DNA of 64,000 bases from Allostella sp. ATCC 35155 (GTDB lineage: Bacteria; Pseudomonadota; Alphaproteobacteria; ATCC43930; Allostellaceae): positions 4,584,001-4,648,000 of the forward strand of contig AP019701.1 in NCBI GenBank assembly GCA_006738865.1. Direction: 5' to 3'. Each line of letters starts with the position of its first letter. The stretch's first letter is position 1. Shown here one piece after another: positions 22,065 to 38,940 of this stretch. The position numbers were made by a program, and so were the translations under genes. The notes beneath the pieces were generated by a model. It did not search any database. It was not told where the DNA came from and was given only the letters and a program-made list of their open reading frames with translations.

Positions 22065-22853
22065 TCAGGCGGCCTTTCCGAGGTGCAGCAGGCAGTCGTC
22101 CGGCAGCGGATCGATCGGGCGGAAATCGCGATGCGCGATCCATTCCGGCCGCTTGAAGCGGCGGATCGCGTTGTCGACCCGGTTGAGGCTGACATAGACG
22201 ATGGTGCGGTCGAAGGGCGACAGGTTGCCCGGGCTGGCATGGACGAGGTTGCCGTGGAACATCAGCACCGAGCCCGCCCGGCCCTTGGGCGCCACCAGCC
22301 CACCCTCGGCGACGAGGCGGCGGATGGTGTCCTTGTCGATCGTCCACAGGGGATAGCTGGTCGTCTGGAGGTCGTGGCCGGCCTCCAGCACGCCCAGCTT
22401 GTGCGAGCGCGGGATGAACATGAGCGCGCCGTTGAACTCGGTCACGTCGTCGAGGAAGACGGCGACGTTCATCGCGTTCGGCCCGGGCATGTCGTCGTCG
22501 TTCTTCCAGGTGCCGTAGTCCTGGTGCCACTGCCACTGGTCGCCGTCGAAGGCAGCCTTGGCGTTGATCTTGAACTGGTGGATGTAGGTCGGCCCGCCGA
22601 GCAGCTGGATCACCGGCTCGACCATGCGCGGATGACGGGCCAGCGCCGCGAAGGTCGGGTCGTAGGTGTGGGTCGCGAATGCGGTCCGGACGACGTCGCC
22701 CGTCCGCTCGCGGACATTCTCGGGCCGGCGCTGGGCGAAGATGCGCGGCACCTCGCCCCGCATCACCGCCACCTCTTCGGCGGTGAAGACATCGGGAAGG
22801 AAGAGGTAGCCCTCCTCCTCGAAGCGCGCGACCTGATCCGAAGCCAGTCTCAT
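22065..22853 (-). CDS. EctD-like phytanoyl-CoA dioxygenase family protein
   Basis: Fe(II)/2-oxoglutarate dioxygenase of the PhyH family, 262 aa. The iron triad is readable: His110 and Asp112 in WQWHQDYGTW, distal His205 in NLVHASPGN, and Arg216 for 2-oxoglutarate. WHQDYGTWKNDDDMP and EFNGALMFIPRSH strongly resemble the ectoine hydroxylase signature, but the Glu of FETW is Gly here and no ectABC genes are near, so I do not call it EctD. It probably hydroxylates a small polar substrate that the following dehydrogenases process. Start MRLASDQ. Confidence 0.88.
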   Translation of the reverse strand: MRLASDQVARFEEEGYLFLPDVFTAEEVAVMRGEVPRIFAQRRPENVRERTGDVVRTAFATHTYDPTFAALARHPRMVEPVIQLLGGPTYIHQFKINAKAAFDGDQWQWHQDYGTWKNDDDMPGPNAMNVAVFLDDVTEFNGALMFIPRSHKLGVLEAGHDLQTTSYPLWTIDKDTIRRLVAEGGLVAPKGRAGSVLMFHGNLVHASPGNLSPFDRTIVYVSLNRVDNAIRRFKRPEWIAHRDFRPIDPLPDDCLLHLGKAA

Positions 22854-22998
22854 GGCGTTCGCTCCCTTCGATCTTCGTTGCCCGAGGCTAGGCCGAACGC
22901 CACCTGCCAGCAAGCCGGCGGCATCACGCCGACGTGACGATGCGGGGTTGGCGCCGGTCTGCTATTCGAGTACGGCAGATTGCACGGGAGGAGCACCC

Positions 22999-29157: not shown

Positions 29158-29252
29158 AGCTGTCAACGAACAAGAACGCGCGGGATCCCTGGGGATCGAC
29201 GACCGTTCGGGCCGCCCTTCCATTGTGGAAGGGCCAATGGGGAAGGGGAAGC

Positions 29253-30764
29253 ATGATGAAGCAGTGGGCAATCGCCGCATCCGCGGCGGCGCTGGCGGTA
29301 TCGTGGGGCGCGCCGGACGCGGCCGCGCAAAAATCCAAGGACACGCTGCGCGTAGCCTGGCAGTACACAGTCGAGAACGTCGACAACTACTTCAACACCA
29401 ACCGCGAGGGCATTCTCTTCTCGCGCATGGTCTGGGACACGCTGGTCGATCGCGACCCCAAGACCTTCGAGACGATCCCGAACCTCGCCACGGCGTGGAA
29501 GTGGATCGATGACCGCACGCTGGAGATGGAGCTGCGCCAGGGCGTCAAGTTCCACAACGGCGAGGAGTTCGATGCCGACGACGTCGTCTTCACCCTGAAC
29601 TGGATCTCCAATCCCGAGAACAAGGTCCTCAACCAGTCGAACGTGAGCTGGATCGAGAAGACCGAGAAGGTCGACAAGTTCAAGATCCGGATCATCAGCA
29701 AGAAGCCGTTCCCGGCGGCGCTGGAGTTCCTGACCATCCCGATCGTCATCTATCCGAACGAGTACTATGCGAAGGTCGGCCCGAAGGAGATGGGCCTGAA
29801 GCCGGTCGGGACCGGCCCCTACAAGGTCACCAAGATCGAGCCCGCCAAGGAATACACGCTGGAGCGCTGGGAAGGTCATTTCTCGGGCGGCTCCAAGCCG
29901 CATGCCAAGATCAAGAACATCGTCATCCGCACCATCCCGGAAATGTCGACGCAGATCGCCGAACTGCTGGCCGGCGGCGTCGACTGGATCTGGTACGTCC
30001 CGACCGACCAGGCCGACCGCCTGGAGCGCCTGCCCAACCTCAAGGTCGACCGCGCCGAGACGATGCGGACCGGCTATATCGGCTTCGACGCCTCCAACCG
30101 CACCAACAACAAGGCGATCAACGACGTCCGCGTGCGCCAGGCGATCGCCCATGCCATCGACCGCGACGCCATCATCAAGAACCTGATCGGCGGCGCCTCG
30201 CGCAAGATCCACGCACCCTGCTTCCCGACGCAGTTCGGCTGCGACGATTCGGTGGCGACGAAGTACGAGTACGATCCCGCCAAGGCGAAGAAGCTGCTCG
30301 CCGAGGCCGGCTACGCCAACGGCTTCGACCTCGACTTCTACGCCTACCGGCCGCGCGACTGGGCCGAGGCGATCATGGGCTACCTGACCGCGGTCGGCAT
30401 CCGTCCGAAGCTGCAGCACATGACCTACATCGCCGTGCGCGACAAGAACCATGAAGGCGTCACGCCGATGTACTTCATGGACTGGGGCTCGTATTCGATC
30501 AACGACGTCTCGGCCATCATGCCGAACTTCTTTGGCGGCAGCCCGGACGACTTCGCGCGCGATCCCGACGTCCAGAAGTGGCTGGCGGCCGGCGGCGCCA
30601 CCGTCGACCAGAAGGTGCGCAAGGAGAATTACTCCAACGCCATCAAGCGGATCACCGAGCGGGTCTACTGGCTGCCGATGTACAGCTTCGTGACCAACTA
30701 CGCCTATACGAAGGACCTGGACTTCACGCCCTTCCGGGACGAGCTGCCGCGCTACTACCTCTAC
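29253..30764 (+). CDS. Peptide ABC transporter substrate-binding protein (DppA/OppA family), 3' end corrupted
   Basis: Periplasmic SBP_bac_5 receptor of an ABC peptide importer. Sec signal peptide MMKQWAIAASAAALAVSWGA with cleavage after AAA; mature core DTLRVAWQYTVENVDNYFN, LRQGVKFHNGEEFDADDVVF and VRQAIAHAIDRDAIIKNLIGG. GGAAGGGGAAG precedes the start. Native-looking sequence ends at about 30764 (PRYYLY). There the frame enters a Nextera adapter match and an inverted copy of its own upstream sequence, and then runs without stop through the permease genes. The true stop is lost; about 504 aa are credible, near the normal family length, so only a few residues may be missing. Confidence 0.88.
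30584..30620 (+). repeat. Source copy of the 37-bp inverted duplication
   Basis: This stretch inside the peptide-binding protein gene (codons for AAGGATVDQKVR) recurs as an exact reverse complement at 30803-30839. It is native here, since it reads through in a conserved-looking part of the protein; the other copy is out of place and follows an adapter-like sequence. Confidence 0.9.
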
Positions 30765-30802
30765 TTAGATCCTCGGCAGCGTCAGATGTGTACAGGGGCC
30801 AG
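30765..30802. other. Nextera transposase-adapter-like sequence (assembly artefact)
   Basis: TCGGCAGCGTCAGATGTGTA at 30773-30792 is an exact 20-nt match to the Illumina Nextera Read 1 transposase oligo as I remember it; the following CAG fits the oligo end if seven bases are deleted. The preceding TAGATC at 30766-30771 could be the start of an i5 index. On the reverse strand the match reads YTSDAAEDL, a peptide often seen when this adapter contaminates translated databases. I regard it as technical, not biological. Confidence 0.88.
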
Positions 30803-30839
30803 GCGCACCTTCTGGTCGACGGTGGCGCCGCCGGCCGCC
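30803..30839 (-). repeat. Inverted 37-bp copy of 30584-30620 after the adapter
   Basis: Exact reverse complement of 30584-30620, directly downstream of the adapter match. A fold-back read, in which a fragment is followed by adapter and then its opposite strand, would create this. Native sequence appears to resume after 30839, leading into the permease start at 30868. How much native intergenic sequence was replaced cannot be seen. Confidence 0.88.
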
Positions 30840-30867
30840 CCGCTTCCCCCCTGTCACGGGCGACCCG

Positions 30868-31785
30868 ATGCTCGCTTATTCCCTGAAGCGCCTGGTCCTG
30901 GCCTTCCTCGTGGTGCTGACGGTTTCCGGCATCACCTTCACGCTGACCAATGCGGCGATCGACCCGGCCAAGGCCCTGGCCGGCGAGTCGGCGACCGCCG
31001 GCGACATCGAGGCGATCCGCAAGGCCTACGGTTTCGACCGCTCCTATCTCGTGCAGTATTTCGACTGGCTGGGCGGCGCGCTCACCGGCGAGTTCGGCGA
31101 ATCCTTCCGCATGCGCCGCCCGGTCGCGACCCTGCTGGCCGAACGCCTGCCGGTGACGATGACGCTCGGCCTGTGCGCGCTGGCCTTCGCGCTGCTCGTC
31201 TCGATCCCGCTCGGGGTGGTGGCCGCGCTCAAACCGAACTCCGGGGTCGACCGAGTCGCCCTCTCCATATCCGTCCTCGGTCAGGCACTGCCGACCTTCT
31301 GGTTCGCGCTGATGATGATCATCCTGTTCGGGGTGGTCCTGCGCTGGCTGCCGATCTCCGGCTCGGACACCTGGCTGCATTTCGTGATGCCATCGATCGC
31401 GCTCGGCTACTACGCGACGCCGGCCTTCATGCGCCTCACGCGGGCGGGGATGATCGAGGTGCTGGCCTCGGACTATATCCGCACCGCGCGCGCCAAGGGC
31501 CTGCGCGCGCCGACCGTCCTCTTCAAGCACGCGCTGCGCAACGCGATCATTCCGGTCGTCTCGCTGGCTGCGGTTCAGTTCGGCTTCATGCTCGGCGGCT
31601 CGGTCGTCATCGAGACGATCTTCGCACTGCACGGCGTCGGCTTCCTCGCCTGGGAATCGATCAGCCGGTCGGACATTCCCGTGGTGCAGGCGATCGTGCT
31701 GCTGATCTCGCTCTTCTACATCGTGCTGACGCTGCTCGCCGACCTCCTCAACGCCTATCTCGATCCTCGCATCCGGGTGGCCTGA
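30868..31785 (+). CDS. dppB: Peptide ABC transporter permease, DppB-like
   Basis: Inner-membrane permease of the Dpp/Opp importer, 305 aa, six helices. Starts MLAYSLKRLVLAFLVVLTVS and has the usual large loop with RKAYGFDRSYLVQYFDWLG. The EAA loop SDYIRTARAKGLRAPTVLFK contacts the ATPases. The C-terminus ADLLNAYLDPRIRVA is standard for DppB. The start is 28 bp after the inverted artefact; whether the native ribosome-binding site is intact is uncertain. Followed by the DppC-like gene after 5 bp. DppB is used as family label; the transported peptide is unknown. Confidence 0.93.
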   Translation: MLAYSLKRLVLAFLVVLTVSGITFTLTNAAIDPAKALAGESATAGDIEAIRKAYGFDRSYLVQYFDWLGGALTGEFGESFRMRRPVATLLAERLPVTMTLGLCALAFALLVSIPLGVVAALKPNSGVDRVALSISVLGQALPTFWFALMMIILFGVVLRWLPISGSDTWLHFVMPSIALGYYATPAFMRLTRAGMIEVLASDYIRTARAKGLRAPTVLFKHALRNAIIPVVSLAAVQFGFMLGGSVVIETIFALHGVGFLAWESISRSDIPVVQAIVLLISLFYIVLTLLADLLNAYLDPRIRVA

Positions 31786-31790
31786 CGACC

Positions 31791-32723
31791 ATGTCGACCT
31801 CGACCGTGATCGGCCCCGGCCGCCTCTCTCCCGGACAGATGCTGGCTCCGACGCCGGGCGCGCTGCTGCGGCGGCGCGTCTTCGGCCACCGCAGCCTGAT
31901 GTTCGGCATCATCGTCCTCGGCCTGATGCTGCTGATGGCGTTCGGCGCCTGGTTCATCGCGCCGCACGACCCCTATGCGCAGAGCCTCGCCACCCGGCGC
32001 ATGCCGCCGATCTGGCACGCCTGGTTCTGGGACGACCCCAAGGCGACCTGGGATCATGTGCTGGGCACCGACAAGGTCGGCCGCGACTACCTGTCCCGCC
32101 TCATCTACGGCGCCCGCATCTCGCTCCTGATCGGCGTCGCGACGATGCTGCTGTCCGGCATCATCGGCACGACGCTGGGCGTGCTCGCCGGGTATTTCGG
32201 CGGCCGGGTCGACCTCGTCGTCACCTTCCTCATCACCACCCGCCTCTCCATGCCGGTGGTCCTGGTGGCGCTGGCGGTGGTCGCGCTCTACGGCAGTTCG
32301 CTCGAGGTCGTGATCCTGGTGCTGGGCTTCCTCCTGTGGGACCGCTTCGCGGTCGTCATGCGCAGCGTCACGATGCAGGCGCGCTCGCTCGACTACGTCA
32401 CGGCGGCGCAGGCCATCGGCTGCTCGACCTCCTACATCGTCGTCCGCGAGATCCTGCCGAACATCCTGAACTCGCTGGTGGTGGTGGCGACGGTCGAGAT
32501 GGCCAACGCGATCCTGCTCGAGGCGGCGCTGTCCTTCCTCGGCCTCGGGGTCCAGCCGCCCCTGCCATCCTGGGGCCTAATGCTGTCCGAGGCGAAGGAG
32601 GACATGTTCTTCAGCCCCTGGATGATCACCCTGCCCGGCATCTGCCTCTTCATGCTGGTGCTTTCGATCAACCTGCTGGGCGACGGCGTGCGCGACGTCA
32701 CCGCGCCCGAGAACCGGAACTGA
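31791..32723 (+). CDS. dppC: Peptide ABC transporter permease, DppC-like
   Basis: Second permease of the importer, 310 aa. A cytoplasmic N-terminal stretch (about 35 residues) precedes FGIIVLGLMLLMAFGAWFIAP; then HVLGTDKVGRDYLSRLIYGAR, the DppC/OppC signature, and the EAA loop LDYVTAAQAIGCSTSYIVVRE. It ends LNLLGDGVRD-like (INLLGDGVRDVTAPENRN). ATG at 31791, 5 bp after dppB; 10 bp before the first ATPase gene. The frame is open far upstream only because the binding-protein gene lost its stop. Confidence 0.93.
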   Translation: MSTSTVIGPGRLSPGQMLAPTPGALLRRRVFGHRSLMFGIIVLGLMLLMAFGAWFIAPHDPYAQSLATRRMPPIWHAWFWDDPKATWDHVLGTDKVGRDYLSRLIYGARISLLIGVATMLLSGIIGTTLGVLAGYFGGRVDLVVTFLITTRLSMPVVLVALAVVALYGSSLEVVILVLGFLLWDRFAVVMRSVTMQARSLDYVTAAQAIGCSTSYIVVREILPNILNSLVVVATVEMANAILLEAALSFLGLGVQPPLPSWGLMLSEAKEDMFFSPWMITLPGICLFMLVLSINLLGDGVRDVTAPENRN

Positions 32724-32733
32724 GGCGGCCGAA

Positions 32734-33737
32734 ATGAGCGCCATTCTCGAAGTCGAGAACCTCCGCGTCGAGATCCCGGTCGCGACCGGCACGCTGGTGC
32801 CGGTCCGCGGCATCAGCTTCAGCGTCCAGCGCGGCGAGACGCTGTGCATCGTCGGCGAATCCGGCTGCGGCAAGTCGCTGACCTCGCTGTCGATCATGAA
32901 CCTGCTGCCGAAGCGCGCGAAGCGTACCGCCGACCGGCTGAGGCTCGGCGGCGCCGACCTGCAGACGATGGACGAGCGGACGATGTCCGACATCCGCGGC
33001 GACCGCATGGCGATGATCTTCCAGGAGCCGATGACGAGCCTCAATCCGGCCTACACGGTCGGCAACCAGCTCGAGGAGGCGTTTCTGCGGCATCGCAAGG
33101 CCTCGCGGCGGGAAGCGCGGGAGCGTGCGGTCTTCCTCCTGGAGAAGGTCGGCATCAGCGCCGCGGCAAGCCGGCTCGGCCAGTATCCGCACCAGCTCTC
33201 CGGCGGCCTCCGGCAGCGCGTCATGATCGCCATGGCCCTCATGTGCGAGCCCGAGCTGATCATCGCCGACGAGCCGACGACCGCGCTGGACGTCACCATC
33301 CAGGCGCAGATCCTGCACCTGCTCGCCTCGCTGCAGCGCGAGTTGCAGATGGGGGTCATGCTGATCACCCACGACCTCGGCATCGTCGCCCGGGTCGCGG
33401 ACCGCGTCGCCGTCATGTATGCGGGTGAGATCGTCGAAACGGGGACGGTCCACGAGGTGTTCTCGCGCCCGCTGCACCCCTATACGCAAGGCCTGCTGCG
33501 CTGCATCCCGGTCCCGGGCAAGACCAGGCGCGGCGCACATCTGGGTTCGATTCCGGGGGTCGTGCCGGCCCTCTTCGGCGATCCCACGCAGTGCAACTTC
33601 GCCAACCGGTGCGAGCATGCGGTGCCCGCCTGCACCGCCGGGCCGGTGCCGCTGACCGGGCTCGGCGAGGGGCGCGGCTACCGCTGCGTGCTGCCCGTCG
33701 AGACCTGCATCGCCAACCAGGCGCGCCCGGTGGCCGC

Positions 33738-33741
<4 letters not shown>
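32734..33741 (+). CDS. dppD: Peptide ABC transporter ATPase, DppD-like
   Basis: First ATPase of the importer, 335 aa. Walker A GESGCGKSLTSLSIM, Q-loop FQEPMTSLNPAYTV, signature LSGGLRQRVMIAMAL, Walker B LIIADEPTTALDVT and the H-loop MLITHDLGIVARVADRV. The C-terminal oligopeptide-transporter extension holds Cys residues (CNFANRCEHAVPAC) as in DppD, which may bind an iron-sulfur cluster. The stop overlaps the start of the DppF gene by four bases. Confidence 0.94.
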
Positions 33742-34709
<968 letters not shown>

Positions 34710-34723
34710 CGCCGGGCGTCATC

Positions 34724-37539
34724 GTGCCACGGCCATCGACCCTGCGTGAGCGGTTCGCGGACGACGGATTCGTCGGCCCGGAGGCGGTTCTCACCGTGCC
34801 GCAGTGCGCCCTTCTGCTGCGTCACGAAGCCGTAGGCTCGTGTCCTCCACCGCTCGACTGGAACAAGGGCCGCGCCGCCACCGACCCGCTGTTCGCCGAC
34901 ATCGCACGCACCCCCGCGATCCTGCGCCTCCTGCGCCCGCTGCTCGGTGACGACGTCGTTCTGTGGGGTGCATCGATCGTCCGCCGCGGCCCGGGCGACG
35001 TTCACACCTGGCACACGGACATCGAGACATCGACCCCAACCGGACGGTTCGTCTCGGTCTGGATCGGGCTCGAGAACACCAGCGCGGCGTCGGGCCTGAC
35101 CCTGATCGGCGGCTCGCACCGCCTGCCGCGCACGATCCAGGAAGAACTGCATCGCCGCGGCCTGCGACGGAGCGAAGTCGACGACGACGCCGTCCTCGCG
35201 ATCGCCCGCGAGATGGATCCGGGTGCGACGCTGGCCATCCCGCCGACCGGGGACGGGCTGGCGATCCTGTTCCATGGACGCACCTGGCACGGCTCGCGCA
35301 ATCTTCGCGGCGGCCTGCCGCGGAGCGCCCTCCTGCTGCAGTACGCGGCGGCGGCCACGCCGGTCCGCATCCTCGATTCGAGCCGGCTGGAGTGGCCGTT
35401 CGCCTTCCTCGACGAGCCGCGACCGCCGGTGCTGGCCGTGCTGGGCGAAGGCGACGCGCAGGCGAACCGCGTGGTCCCGCCGCCCGGCCGCGCCGGAACC
35501 CTGCCGCCGGAGCGGGTGTTCCCCCTGACCCTGCCGTTGCCCCGACCGCCCGCGGCCGCTTGGCATCCGCATGCCCTGCTGTCGGGGCGGGCACCGAACC
35601 TGCCCGCCTTCACCTGCCACGCTTCGGTGCTGGCGCCGGGTCACCAGCCGCACCTGCCGCACAGCCACATCGAGGAGGAGATCCTGGTCGTCCTCGAAGG
35701 CGAGGCGGAGCTGGCGATCGCCCACGCCCCGGAGGATCCGGCGCCGCGGCGGATCGCCGCCCATGCCGGCCACGTCGCCTACTATCCGGCCTATCAGCAC
35801 CATACGATCCGGAACGTCGGCCCGGGCCCTCTCAGCTACGCCATGATCAAGTGGTCGGGTCCGGCTGCAGCCGTCGAAACCGCGCTTGGCCTGCAGTCCG
35901 CAGCCGATCCCGGCGCAGCTGCGGCGCCTGGCAGCGACCGCGTCGCCATCCGGCCGATCTTCGAGGGCCCGACGCAGTTTCTCGGCAAGCTGCACGCCCA
36001 CCGCACGACGATCCGGCCCGGCGGCGGCTACCCGGCCCATGTCGACCCCCACGACATCGTCATCTTCGTGCTGTCCGGGCGCGTCCGCACGCTCGGCCGG
36101 GAAGTCGGCGCGGGCGCCGTGCTCTTCCACCCGGCGGGCGAGCCCCACGGGATGGAGAACCCCGGTTCCGAGCCTGCACGCTACGTCGTGTTCGAATTCC
36201 ATGCGCCCGACCCCGCAACCATTCCGGCGCTGGTCGATGCCGACTGGTACCGGGCGCGATATCCGGACGTGGCAGCCGCCGGCATCGATCCACTGACCCA
36301 CTACCTGCGCTTCGGCGCGCGGGAGGGACGGCTGCCGCGACCGCCGACGCCCGCCGCGCTCGTCGATGCCGACCTGCTGGATCCGGCGTGGTACCTCGCC
36401 CGCTATCCCGACGTCGCCGCCTCCGGCCAGGATCCGGTCCAGCATTATCGCTATTTCGGCGCTGCCGAGGGGCGCGATCCCTGTCCCGAACCCGTGCTTC
36501 GCCTCGCCGAGCGGTCCGGACTGTTCGATGCGGACTGGTATCGCCGCGAGCACCCGGGCGAAGCCGGTCCGGTGGAGGCGCTCCTGCGGGCCTACCTCGC
36601 CGATCCGGCCCTGAGGCAGCGGGCGCTCGGGCCGCGCTTTCACGGTGCCCGATACCTGGCGGAGAACCCGGATGTAGACGCGGCCGGGCTGAACCCGCTC
36701 GCCCACTATCTCCGGCACGGGCGTCACGAGGGACGCGCGCTCCCGATCTGCGAGGACTGGAAGCCGCCGCCGGACCTGGAGCAGCGCGTCGCCCACTATC
36801 GCGCGCGCTCGCCCGGTGGCCAGCCACGCATCGCGCTCTGCACGGCGATCGTCGGCGGCTACAAAACCCTGATGGTGCCCGACCGCCCCGACCCCGCCGT
36901 CGACTATCTCTGCTTCTCCGATCGCCCGATCGACGGGTACGGCGTCTGGGACGTCCGCACCATCCCGTTCCGGCACGACGACCCGGTGCGCGTCGCTCGC
37001 TTCGCCAAGACCCATATCGCCAAGCTGGCGGAGGGGTATGAGACGGTCGCCTGGATCGACGGCAACGTGCTGCTTCGCGGCAGCCCGCTATCCTATGCCG
37101 ACCGCATGGAGGCCGCCGGCTGGGGCGTCGGGCTCGTTGTCCATCCCGAGCGCGCCTGCATCTTCGCCGAAGCCGAAGCCTGCAAGGCCCAGATGCGCGA
37201 CGATCCCGCCACCATCGATGCGCAGATGGCAGCTATCGTGCGCTCGGCCTCCCGTCGGACGCCGGCCTATGGGAGACCAACTTCCTCGTCCTCCGTCCGG
37301 GCGCGCCCGGCGTACGCGCCGCGCTCGATCTGTGGTGGGACGAGATCGCGCGCCATAGCCGTCGCGACCAGCTTTCCCTGGGCTTCGCGCTCGCACGCTC
37401 GGGCGCCGTTCATGGCGCCCTGCTGCCGGCCGGGCAATCCGTGCGCAACCACCCCGACTTCAGCTATTTCGACCATGCGGTCTGCCGGCGAATGATCGCG
37501 CCCGAATTCCTGCGCACCTCGCTGCTCGTCCCGTCCTGA
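34724..37539 (+). CDS. PhyH dioxygenase-bicupin-repeat-DUF616 fusion protein, frameshifted near 37230
   Basis: About 938 aa once a missing base near 37229-37234 is restored; as read, the frame ends at 37495 with nonsense. Domain order: (1) PhyH-type Fe(II)/2-oxoglutarate dioxygenase, residues about 1-240, with His97 and Asp99 in HTWHTDIET and distal His189 in GRTWHGSRN; (2) cupin about 295-385 with HSHIEEEILVVLEGEA; (3) second cupin about 410-500 with HVDPHDIVIFVLSGR; (4) four WY..YPDV..HYL..G..EGR repeats, about 502-680; (5) DUF616 (TOD1/MUCI70 glycosyltransferase-like), about 698-938: ALCTAIVGGYKTL, AWIDGNVLLRG, HPERACIFAEAEACK and, in the shifted frame, WETNFLVLRP and WWDEIARHSRRDQLS. A GTG start is inferred. 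No signal peptide or membrane segment is visible. It probably hydroxylates and glycosylates, or senses, a glycan or small metabolite; function unknown. Confidence 0.75.
36227..36752 (+). repeat. Four degenerate protein repeats of about 40 residues
   Basis: Units at about 36227-36342, 36357-36494, 36524-36618 (degenerate) and 36635-36752 encode the pattern (D)W-Y-x3-Y-P-D-V-x-x-x-G-x-D-P-L-x-H-Y-L-x-x-G-x-x-E-G-R. Examples are DWYRARYPDVAAAGIDPLTH and AWYLARYPDVAASGQDPVQH. I recall similar units in large alphaproteobacterial glycosyltransferase-like polypeptides; their role is not established. They join the cupins to the DUF616 domain. Confidence 0.85.
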
Positions 37540-37542
37540 GCC

Positions 37543-38721
37543 TCACGGCCGCCGGTTGCGCCGGCGGTCCTCGGGCTGGTCCCACATCAGGAAGTCCGGC
37601 CCGAGGCGGTCGATCGCGGGGCAGCCCATCTGCGCCATGGCGAGGTCGACCTCGCGGCGCAGGATCGAGAGCGCCTTGTCGACGCCCGCCTTGCCGCCGG
37701 CCGCAGCGCCGTAGAGGGTCGCCCGCCCGGTGAAGACCATCTTCGCGCCGAGGCAATGGGCGATCAGCGCGTCGCTGCCGCGGCGGATGCCGCCGTCCAG
37801 CATGATCGTCATCCGGTCGCCCACCGCTTCGGCGACCGAGGGCAGGGCCTCGATCGGCGCCGGGGCGCGATCGAGCTGCCGCGCGCCGTGGTTCGACACC
37901 ATGATGCCGTCGACGCCGAGATCGGCCGCGCGCAGCGCGTCGTCGGGATGCATGATGCCCTTGATGACGAGATTGCGTGGCCACAGACGCCGCAGCTTCT
38001 CGACCGCATCCCAGGTCAGCGCGGGATAGGATTCCTGGACGACGAAGTCGGCGACCTCGTCCGCGGTCGCGCCCGGGCGGGCATAGGGCGCCCAGTTGTC
38101 GAACATCGGCGTCCCGGTGCGCAGATACTCCATCATCCAGCCGGGATGGAGCAGCGCCTCCAGCCGCGTGCGCATCGTCATCCGCAGCGGCCGGCCGAAG
38201 CCGTTGCGCACGTTCCGCTCGCGGTTCGAGGTGCAGGGAACATCGACCGTCAGCACCAGGGTCGATAGGCCGGCGTCGCGGGCGCGCTGCACCATGCCCT
38301 CGGAGACGTTCCAGCTCTTGGCCAAATAGATCTGGTACCAGCCATGCTCGGGCGCGACACGTGCCAGATTCTCGATCGAGGCGGTGGCGGTGCCGGACAT
38401 GATGAAGGGCACGTCGGCGTCGCGCGCGGCCTCGGCCAGCATCAGGTCGGCGCCGGGGCGGAAGAGGCCCGCAAGCCCGGTCGGCGCGATGCCGAAGGGA
38501 CTGGCGTACTCGCGCCCGAACACGGTCGTCTTCTGGCTGCGCTGCGTCACGTCGACGAGGAAGCGCGGCACGATGCGATAGTCCTGAAACGCACCAGTGG
38601 CCCGGTCGAGCCCCTCCTCGCCGTCGGCGCCGCCTTCGATGAAGTCGTAGCAGATCTGCGGCAGCCGCCGCTTCGCCATCCGGCGCAGATCGTCGAGATT
38701 GACGGCACGGTCGAGATTCAT
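37543..38721 (-). CDS. FMN-dependent alpha-hydroxy-acid dehydrogenase (LldD family)
   Basis: FMN enzyme oxidising an L-2-hydroxy acid such as lactate, 392 aa. Signatures: YDFIEGGADGEEGLDRA, FGIAPTGLAGLFRPGAD, MSGTATASIENLARVAP, catalytic His and Arg in VSNHGARQLDRAPAPIEALP, and FMN-phosphate region IMLDGGIRRGSDALIAHCLG. Start MNLDRAVNLDDLRRMAKRRL is the family N-terminus. It converges on the fusion gene with 3 bp between stops. The GARQLD loop is typical; lactate, glycolate or mandelate cannot be told apart. Confidence 0.92.
   Translation of the reverse strand: MNLDRAVNLDDLRRMAKRRLPQICYDFIEGGADGEEGLDRATGAFQDYRIVPRFLVDVTQRSQKTTVFGREYASPFGIAPTGLAGLFRPGADLMLAEAARDADVPFIMSGTATASIENLARVAPEHGWYQIYLAKSWNVSEGMVQRARDAGLSTLVLTVDVPCTSNRERNVRNGFGRPLRMTMRTRLEALLHPGWMMEYLRTGTPMFDNWAPYARPGATADEVADFVVQESYPALTWDAVEKLRRLWPRNLVIKGIMHPDDALRAADLGVDGIMVSNHGARQLDRAPAPIEALPSVAEAVGDRMTIMLDGGIRRGSDALIAHCLGAKMVFTGRATLYGAAAGGKAGVDKALSILRREVDLAMAQMGCPAIDRLGPDFLMWDQPEDRRRNRRP
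37549..37567. terminator. Small hairpin at a convergent gene junction
   Basis: CCGCCGG (37549-37555), loop TTGCG and CCGGCGG (37561-37567) lie within the last codons of the LldD-family gene, 10 bp beyond the stop of the fusion gene. It could end the plus-strand transcript. It also encodes the Arg-rich C-terminus, so it may be only codon-driven. Confidence 0.3.
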
Positions 38722-38940
38722 GGTTTCCACCCCGATGCGGATCGTTCTTGCGGCGACGGCGCCGCCCCCGGGGCAGGCCTCGACTCGCTGCCATTCTGAT
38801 TCGCAAGCCGACCCGTTCCAAGGGCTTCGCGCTGGCCGGTCGCTCAATTCCGTCATAATGTCGCGATCCTTCCGCGGGCGGCCTCCGGGGCCGCCGCATC
38901 AGCCCATCGCGATCCGATCCGAACCGCCGAGGCCCCTGCC

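Follow-up and report, generated by a model that had tools for sequence, protein, structure and literature searches.

A rare fusion of a PhyH-type oxygenase, two cupins, YPDV-type repeats and a DUF616 domain in Allostella, and a related PhyH-bicupin gene pair in phages

What would bring an iron-dependent oxygenase, two cupins, a set of repeats and a transferase-like domain together on one polypeptide chain? The question is raised by a gene in a 64,000-nucleotide stretch of the genome of Allostella sp. ATCC 35155 (GenBank assembly GCA_006738865.1, contig AP019701.1, positions 4,584,001 to 4,648,000), which is referred to here as the window and whose own numbering is used throughout. A first-pass annotation, made from the sequence without database searches, had read positions 34724 to 37539 as a single protein in which a PhyH dioxygenase, two cupins, four repeats and a DUF616 domain follow one another. 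We find that the fusion is real and that its parts are two modules, PhyH-bicupin and YPDV-DUF616. We propose, at what we would call an even chance of being right, that it is a cytosolic multi-domain glycan-tailoring protein built from two pre-existing modules, in which an oxygenase-bicupin and a transferase-like domain act on the same glycan.

The in-frame part of the gene runs on the forward strand from a GTG start at 34724 to 37231 (frame 2). It encodes, in order, a PhyH-type Fe(II)/2-oxoglutarate dioxygenase domain (34736-35368, residues ~5-215), cupin 1 (35579-35878, residues ~286-385, a Cupin_2/Cupin_1 match), cupin 2 (35939-36208, residues ~406-495, the best Cupin_2 stretch being 428-489), four YPDV-type repeats with a degenerate third unit (36209-36778) and the N-terminal part of DUF616 (TOD1_MUCI70) with its W-x-D-x-N motif (36779-37231). 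Profile searches, which the first-pass annotation had recommended, placed PhyH (PF05721, 42 bits against a Pfam cut-off of 22) and the pair of Cupin_2 stretches (68.9 bits together, cut-off 27.2) above threshold, but PF04765 fell short in the window copy (17.3 against 21.4 bits, sub-threshold on its own) and again in a whole-genome search of the source genome (19.6 bits), the tail of the domain being out of frame. This C-terminal part, with the ETN and RRDQLS motifs, lies at 37234-37539 in frame 1 and ends in a stop at 37537-37539; the frame break itself falls at 37231-37234. The idea of a single protein therefore holds for one frame from 34724 to about 37231, whereas the last ~100 residues of the window copy stand in another frame and may be broken or mis-sequenced.

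An intact ortholog is present in a sister species (genome G001, L023:7852-10680), where 942 amino acids are encoded in one open frame with the same domain order, and where PhyH (40 bits), Cupin_2 (74.6 bits) and TOD1_MUCI70 (31.0 bits, cut-off 21.4) all exceed their cut-offs. It is flanked by the same peptide importer and the same flavin mononucleotide (FMN)-dependent dehydrogenase as the window copy. By tblastn, ortholog residues 11-841 align with frame 2 up to 37231 at 59% identity, and residues 843-942 with frame 1 from 37234 at ~62-63%. Because this intact, single-frame ortholog occupies the same place in a sister species, the architecture is not an artefact of assembly, a concern that the first-pass annotation had raised itself; nor do the domains always lie on separate genes, for two genomes carry them fused and others carry them apart. 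The source genome is a 5.34-Mb single contig, and apart from an odd end of the importer's substrate-binding protein gene no other within-gene break was seen where the sister genome was available for comparison along the stretch.

Amino-acid identity to the ortholog is 70% in PhyH, 59% in cupin 1, 72% in cupin 2, 55% in the repeats and 54% in the in-frame part of DUF616. Since identities of 54-72% (63% in the out-of-frame tail) are found while four-fold degenerate sites are alike at only 45-50% per domain (40% in the linker, 48% in the tail), every domain is under purifying selection, the out-of-frame tail included. This selection, like the intact ortholog, argues against the notion that unrelated modules recombined by chance in one genus, never acquired a joint function and are now decaying. 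A fusion restricted to two of the 43 genomes of the order, with a frame break in one of its two copies, absent from two sister species and sitting in a variable slot is what such decay might look like, and we nevertheless regard this explanation as quite improbable.

The PhyH family is marked by a His-x-Asp...His iron triad and an Arg for 2-oxoglutarate, all of which are present in the window copy (H97, D99, H189 and R200) and identical in the four aligned bacterial and the two aligned phage copies. Cupin 1 carries the canonical cupin metal motif HxH..E..H (H313, H315, E319, H359), again identical in the four bacterial and two phage sequences aligned. Cupin 2 departs from that motif and has H439-x-D441-x-x-D444...H475 instead, an HxDxxD...H arrangement conserved across the bacterial and phage copies. 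The earlier statement that all metal-ligand motifs are intact is thus right for PhyH and cupin 1 and wrong for cupin 2, and metal binding by the bicupin is probable, at any rate in cupin 1. As for the repeats, described before as four HYL..G..EGR units, four units are indeed there, but HY...G..EGR is complete in only three of them, and the sister copy shows the same. Two known PhyH classes were considered and rejected. In PhyH-type halogenases the triad Asp is replaced by Gly or Ala, and the conserved D99 rules out membership (a relative, L022, also scores below the cut-off of the chlorinating-enzyme model TIGR01762, 42.7 against 226.3 bits); membership among the ectoine hydroxylases EctD is ruled out by the TIGR02408 equivalog model (22.3 against 336.5 bits). 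A second, separate PhyH-type gene was seen by eye from its translation at 22065-22913 of the window, on the reverse strand.

Could the cupins, or the whole PhyH-bicupin part, merely bind a ligand and thereby control the DUF616 transferase, without any oxygenase reaction? Such a sensor would account for a cupin 2 without canonical ligands, and one of the bicupin's fold matches is a regulatory cupin of ChrR type (Z 20.4); it would leave unexplained why the HxD...H triad and Arg are identical in all four bacterial and both aligned phage copies and why the ligands of cupin 1 are kept. Moreover, PhyH and the bicupin are separate genes in phages, and therefore do not need DUF616. We give the sensor only a small chance of being correct.

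The first-pass annotation had called the architecture unfamiliar, and it is rare. Over most of its length the protein was found in two of 61 genomes (its own and 60 relatives), namely the source genome and G001, and at the level of the order a PhyH-bicupin profile (A2) matched the same two of 43 genomes at E 1e-20, the two that hold the whole architecture. These genome searches scored few best candidates per genome, so counts of absence are not exhaustive. In a class sample of 385 genomes, profile A2 was matched over its full length only in the source genome and in G380, while G136 matched in the bicupin alone, and a search of 143 relatives of G380 returned G380 itself and G136. Among 398 genomes of the phylum it matched the source genome and G461 (bicupin only); a bicupin profile run on 299 phylum genomes was strong in the same two and weak (E ~1e-10) in G370, G544 and G606. 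A pattern scan of an 84,980-species collection added a single relative, L022, from a Methyloceanibacter metagenome-assembled genome (650 amino acids), whose N-terminus looks coiled-coil-like to the eye and which has neither YPDV nor DUF616. In total, a fused PhyH-bicupin was seen in four bacteria in this analysis. Among plasmid records, none of the best 20 of 131 covers 80% of the whole protein; a plasmid search with the PhyH-bicupin part gave weak PhyH matches only, a further one gave three weak PhyH matches, and one with the phage bicupin gave no match.

Viral scans with whole modules returned no match, and neither did a named-phage collection; phage sequences surfaced only when the PhyH domain alone was used as the profile, which drew two IMG/VR contigs, with a third from later scans. 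All three share a cassette (L122:2159-6612, L124:9252-15413 and L127:1165-6195) in which PhyH and bicupin are adjacent genes whose ends overlap by a few bases, given the starts chosen in this analysis. The gene order is GT2 - PhyH - bicupin - Methyltransf_24 - GT4, GT2 and GT4 being glycosyltransferase (GT) families; in two of the contigs a GT-like gene without a Pfam match, recognised by eye, stands between Methyltransf_24 and GT4, and the GT4 gene of L122 is cut and barely at the cut-off. In L124 the PHROGs matches are portal and head proteins upstream of the cassette and, downstream of it, tape-measure and tail completion proteins, with no PHROGs family for its GT2, PhyH or bicupin; L122 and L127 were judged by eye. 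The GT4 gene of L124 also carries intein domains. The phage PhyH proteins score 54.7, 73.4 and 45.3 bits with Pfam (cut-off 22); compared with the query or window protein, phage PhyH reaches 43-47% identity and phage bicupin 39-40%. A 32-row tree groups the three phage PhyH sequences with the four bacterial ones in one clade (96/96) and leaves all 25 other alphaproteobacterial PhyH sequences outside it, a result that the sampling favours since the rows were picked by the module's own profile; the 25 come from 27 PhyH loci fetched from the class sample, the partial matches L038 and L053 having been left out, as were matches of that sample for which no locus was fetched. On a long branch beside the clade is L048, which is EctD-like and shows no cupins in the region that was read.

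The second module also occurs elsewhere. YPDV repeats were found in other genomes by profile A3, and a YPDV-DUF616 profile matched 25 other genomes, two of which (G396 and G319) were fetched with their neighbourhoods. Four of the six DUF616 loci fetched lie in a polysaccharide- or capsule-type setting, two of them annotated and two judged by eye: AXQ96024.1 of a Cereibacter sphaeroides plasmid adjoins sugar ATP-binding cassette (ABC) export, rfbB/rfbC and sulfotransferase genes; WP_082128383.1 of a Hoeflea plasmid adjoins rfbA, GT and GT61 genes; and two G396 loci adjoin capsule/polysaccharide-type genes. Five of the six were scanned with Pfam (L088, from G319, was read and aligned outside the scan), and a second GT domain exceeds its cut-off in four of these proteins and is weak in the fifth (L086). 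The genome of L022 encodes a GT92-TPR-DUF616 protein of 1290 amino acids (L121:6942-10814). In the source genome itself, three other YPDV proteins (L093, L094 and L095) contain or adjoin glycan-type genes, partly as judged by eye: L095 has WsaF glycosyltransferase domains, L094 has a sub-threshold methyltransferase stretch and GT-like neighbours by eye, and the third has no Pfam match and a neighbour that reads like a dTDP-sugar reductase. A distant bicupin occurs twice in a 1351-residue protein of G461 (L092:2201-6256), which combines bicupin, radical SAM, bicupin and sulfotransferase domains, with a GT-like gene upstream by eye. The remark that no glycan operon is around is accurate for the window locus, but both modules accompany glycan enzymes in several other places.

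From motif conservation, from the relatives by fold and of PhyH, and from reported DUF616 activities, we infer a glycan-tailoring protein, and likewise its chemistry, its substrate and sugar transfer by DUF616. The phage cassettes, the clade that their PhyH genes share with the fused PhyH, and the polysaccharide-type loci of other DUF616 proteins speak for this reading. Module 1 (PhyH and bicupin, residues ~1-495) would work as an enzyme pair in which PhyH, with Fe(II), O2 and 2-oxoglutarate, hydroxylates or oxidises either a sugar or a substituent bound to one. The bicupin would handle that compound too, either as an isomerase- or lyase-like partner or by binding and gating. Module 2 (YPDV and DUF616, residues ~496-942 of the intact copy) could be a capsule/polysaccharide-type glycosyltransferase-like unit whose repeats may serve as a scaffold or recruit other glycan enzymes, and the fusion would hold modification and transfer on one chain. 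No membrane-spanning stretch was found by hydropathy (no 19-residue mean above 1.2). Hydroxylation, ligand binding and sugar transfer, the three abilities proposed for the protein in the first-pass annotation, would all agree with the evidence. More broadly, PhyH and bicupin may together be a so far undescribed oxygenase unit of two parts, producing an oxidised sugar or substituent and encoded by two genes in phages for virion glycans and, fused to the DUF616 transferase or free, used by alphaproteobacteria for their own surface glycans; this is a tentative extension that we doubt somewhat more than we believe it.

Several points weigh against a role in glycan tailoring. There are no glycan genes at the window locus, either among ten flanking genes (Pfam) or among the window genes read by eye, and none was seen by eye around the L022 copy or around the PhyH-bicupin that stands alone in G380. 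Two of the six DUF616 loci, L088 (G319) and L121, have no clear polysaccharide cluster by eye. The phage contigs count as about one lineage, being mutual relatives (65-67% identical in PhyH, 68-78% in bicupin). Structure prediction, also suggested at the outset, succeeded in part: the AlphaFold model of PhyH-bicupin was poor from two sequences (predicted local distance difference test, pLDDT, 41.6), and from six only the bicupin was usable (pLDDT 77-89 in the cupin 1 block, residues 291-380, and 74-90 in the cupin 2 block, residues 411-497), leaving PhyH without a confident fold. The bicupin model matches DUF861, BacB, AerE and ureidoglycine aminohydrolase (VIA-align Z 19.7-21.8, 203-223 residues, root-mean-square deviation 3.1-3.6); it matches ring-cleaving salicylate and gentisate dioxygenases (Z 20-21) and seed storage proteins (Z ~19) equally. 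Since unlike enzymes and storage proteins fit equally well, the fold fixes no reaction; two cupin domains are supported by Cupin_2 stretches, model and fold matches alike. Judged by sequence, PhyH has its closest solved relatives in EctD, a monooxygenase (6zyk) and leucine hydroxylase, mainly amino-acid enzymes; EvdO2, an enzyme of sugar chemistry, is a weaker relative of known structure. For DUF616, a profile search of the PDB gave weak matches only (best WbbM, E 0.36). Finally, the activities reported for PF04765 disagree: plant MUCI70, a seed-mucilage enzyme, is reported to have galacturonosyltransferase activity in vitro (PMC10576798), which favours the proposal, and TOD1, another DUF616 protein (462 amino acids, in the Golgi), was assayed as a ceramidase (PMC4309442), which does not.

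The amino-acid enzymes among the PhyH relatives raise a further possibility, namely that PhyH, like EctD or leucine hydroxylase, hydroxylates an imported amino acid or peptide, that the position behind the importer is functional, and that the bicupin processes the product as BacB or ureidoglycine aminohydrolase do. EctD (E 2e-10) and leucine hydroxylase (E 6e-7) are indeed among the solved relatives, the bicupin has fold matches in BacB, AerE and ureidoglycine aminohydrolase (Z 19.7-20.8), and the neighbours of the fusion encode a peptide importer, an M20 peptidase, an amidase and an M81 protein. The importer, of dipeptide/oligopeptide ABC type (SBP_bac_5, two permeases and two ATPases), lies at 29253-34709 on the forward strand, and the distance of 14 bases noted before, from the stop of the upstream ATPase to the fusion start, was confirmed, a gap that suggests co-transcription. 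Each of the genus's four genomes (G000, the source genome, and G001, G002 and G003) retains the importer, the FMN dehydrogenase (37543-38856, reverse strand), the M20 peptidase, the amidase and the M81 protein, but the fusion follows the importer in only two of them. The dehydrogenase is the downstream border of a slot, syntenic in the four genomes. In G000 and G001 the fusion occupies this slot; in G003 an alpha/beta hydrolase (L108:9419-10243) stands there, with no remnant of the fusion found, and in G002 the slot measures about 50 bp. Because two sister species keep the importer without the fusion gene, it is not an obligate partner, and a link to it is not supported; we treat it as a neighbour. 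An amino-acid or peptide substrate is also opposed by the glycosyltransferases that accompany the phage pairs and by the distance from the ectoine-hydroxylase equivalog cut-off, and it leaves the YPDV-DUF616 half without a task. We therefore consider it unlikely. The locus holds no capsule or exopolysaccharide cluster, its neighbours being importer, peptidase, amidase and dehydrogenase genes. Flanking proteins of G000 and G001 are 77-93% identical (amidase 91%), against 61% for the fusion, and the window amidase shares 86-92% identity with its counterparts in the three other genomes; to judge from these comparisons, the slot is variable and the fusion gene evolves fast.

Set beside its closest known counterparts, the fusion shares parts with each. 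EctD (3emr, 4mhr) and leucine hydroxylase (5nch) belong to the PhyH family and have HxD...H and a distal Arg, but the similarity is weak and the EctD equivalog cut-off is missed; to our knowledge, neither is fused to cupins or a transferase. DUF861/ureidoglycine aminohydrolase, BacB and AerE have two cupin barrels in the same order, but only 14-17% identity to the fusion's bicupin, which differs in the HxDxxD...H of cupin 2 and in being joined to or paired with PhyH. AXQ96024.1 and WP_082128383.1 have DUF616 with W-x-D-x-N and RDQ motifs as in the fusion, and the former starts with YPDV-type repeats like module 2; they differ in carrying GT2 (and RgpF) domains in place of PhyH-bicupin and in their polysaccharide gene setting. 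Plant MUCI70/RGGAT1 and TOD1 belong to the same Pfam family as the intact ortholog, and we know of no fusion of this type among MUCI70 or TOD1. Phage virion-glycosylation genes include glycosyltransferases in the phage genome, as do the cassette contigs; for mycobacteriophage Maravista, capsid glycosylation is proposed (PMC11256854).

Among the papers listed by full-text searches, none describes, to judge by title and the start of the abstract, the PhyH-bicupin pair, in the phage cassette or elsewhere, or the fusion; most subscription papers and all preprints lay outside these searches. The suggestion of an undescribed system is most plausible for this pair, also split in phages, and its fused and paired occurrence points to a hitherto undescribed route to modified surface sugars. 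Predicting from a genome which surface sugars are hydroxylated or oxidised is difficult, and PhyH-bicupin, whether fused to a transferase-like domain or as a phage pair beside glycosyltransferases, offers a specific and testable enzyme unit; the phage cassettes suggest that virions of some phages may bear an oxidised glycan. At the importer, the substrate-binding protein frame of the window (29223-32723) lacks a stop where one is expected and continues open until the second permease ends. Its sister counterpart stops about three residues past the match, and perhaps there is a small frame error at this point of the window.

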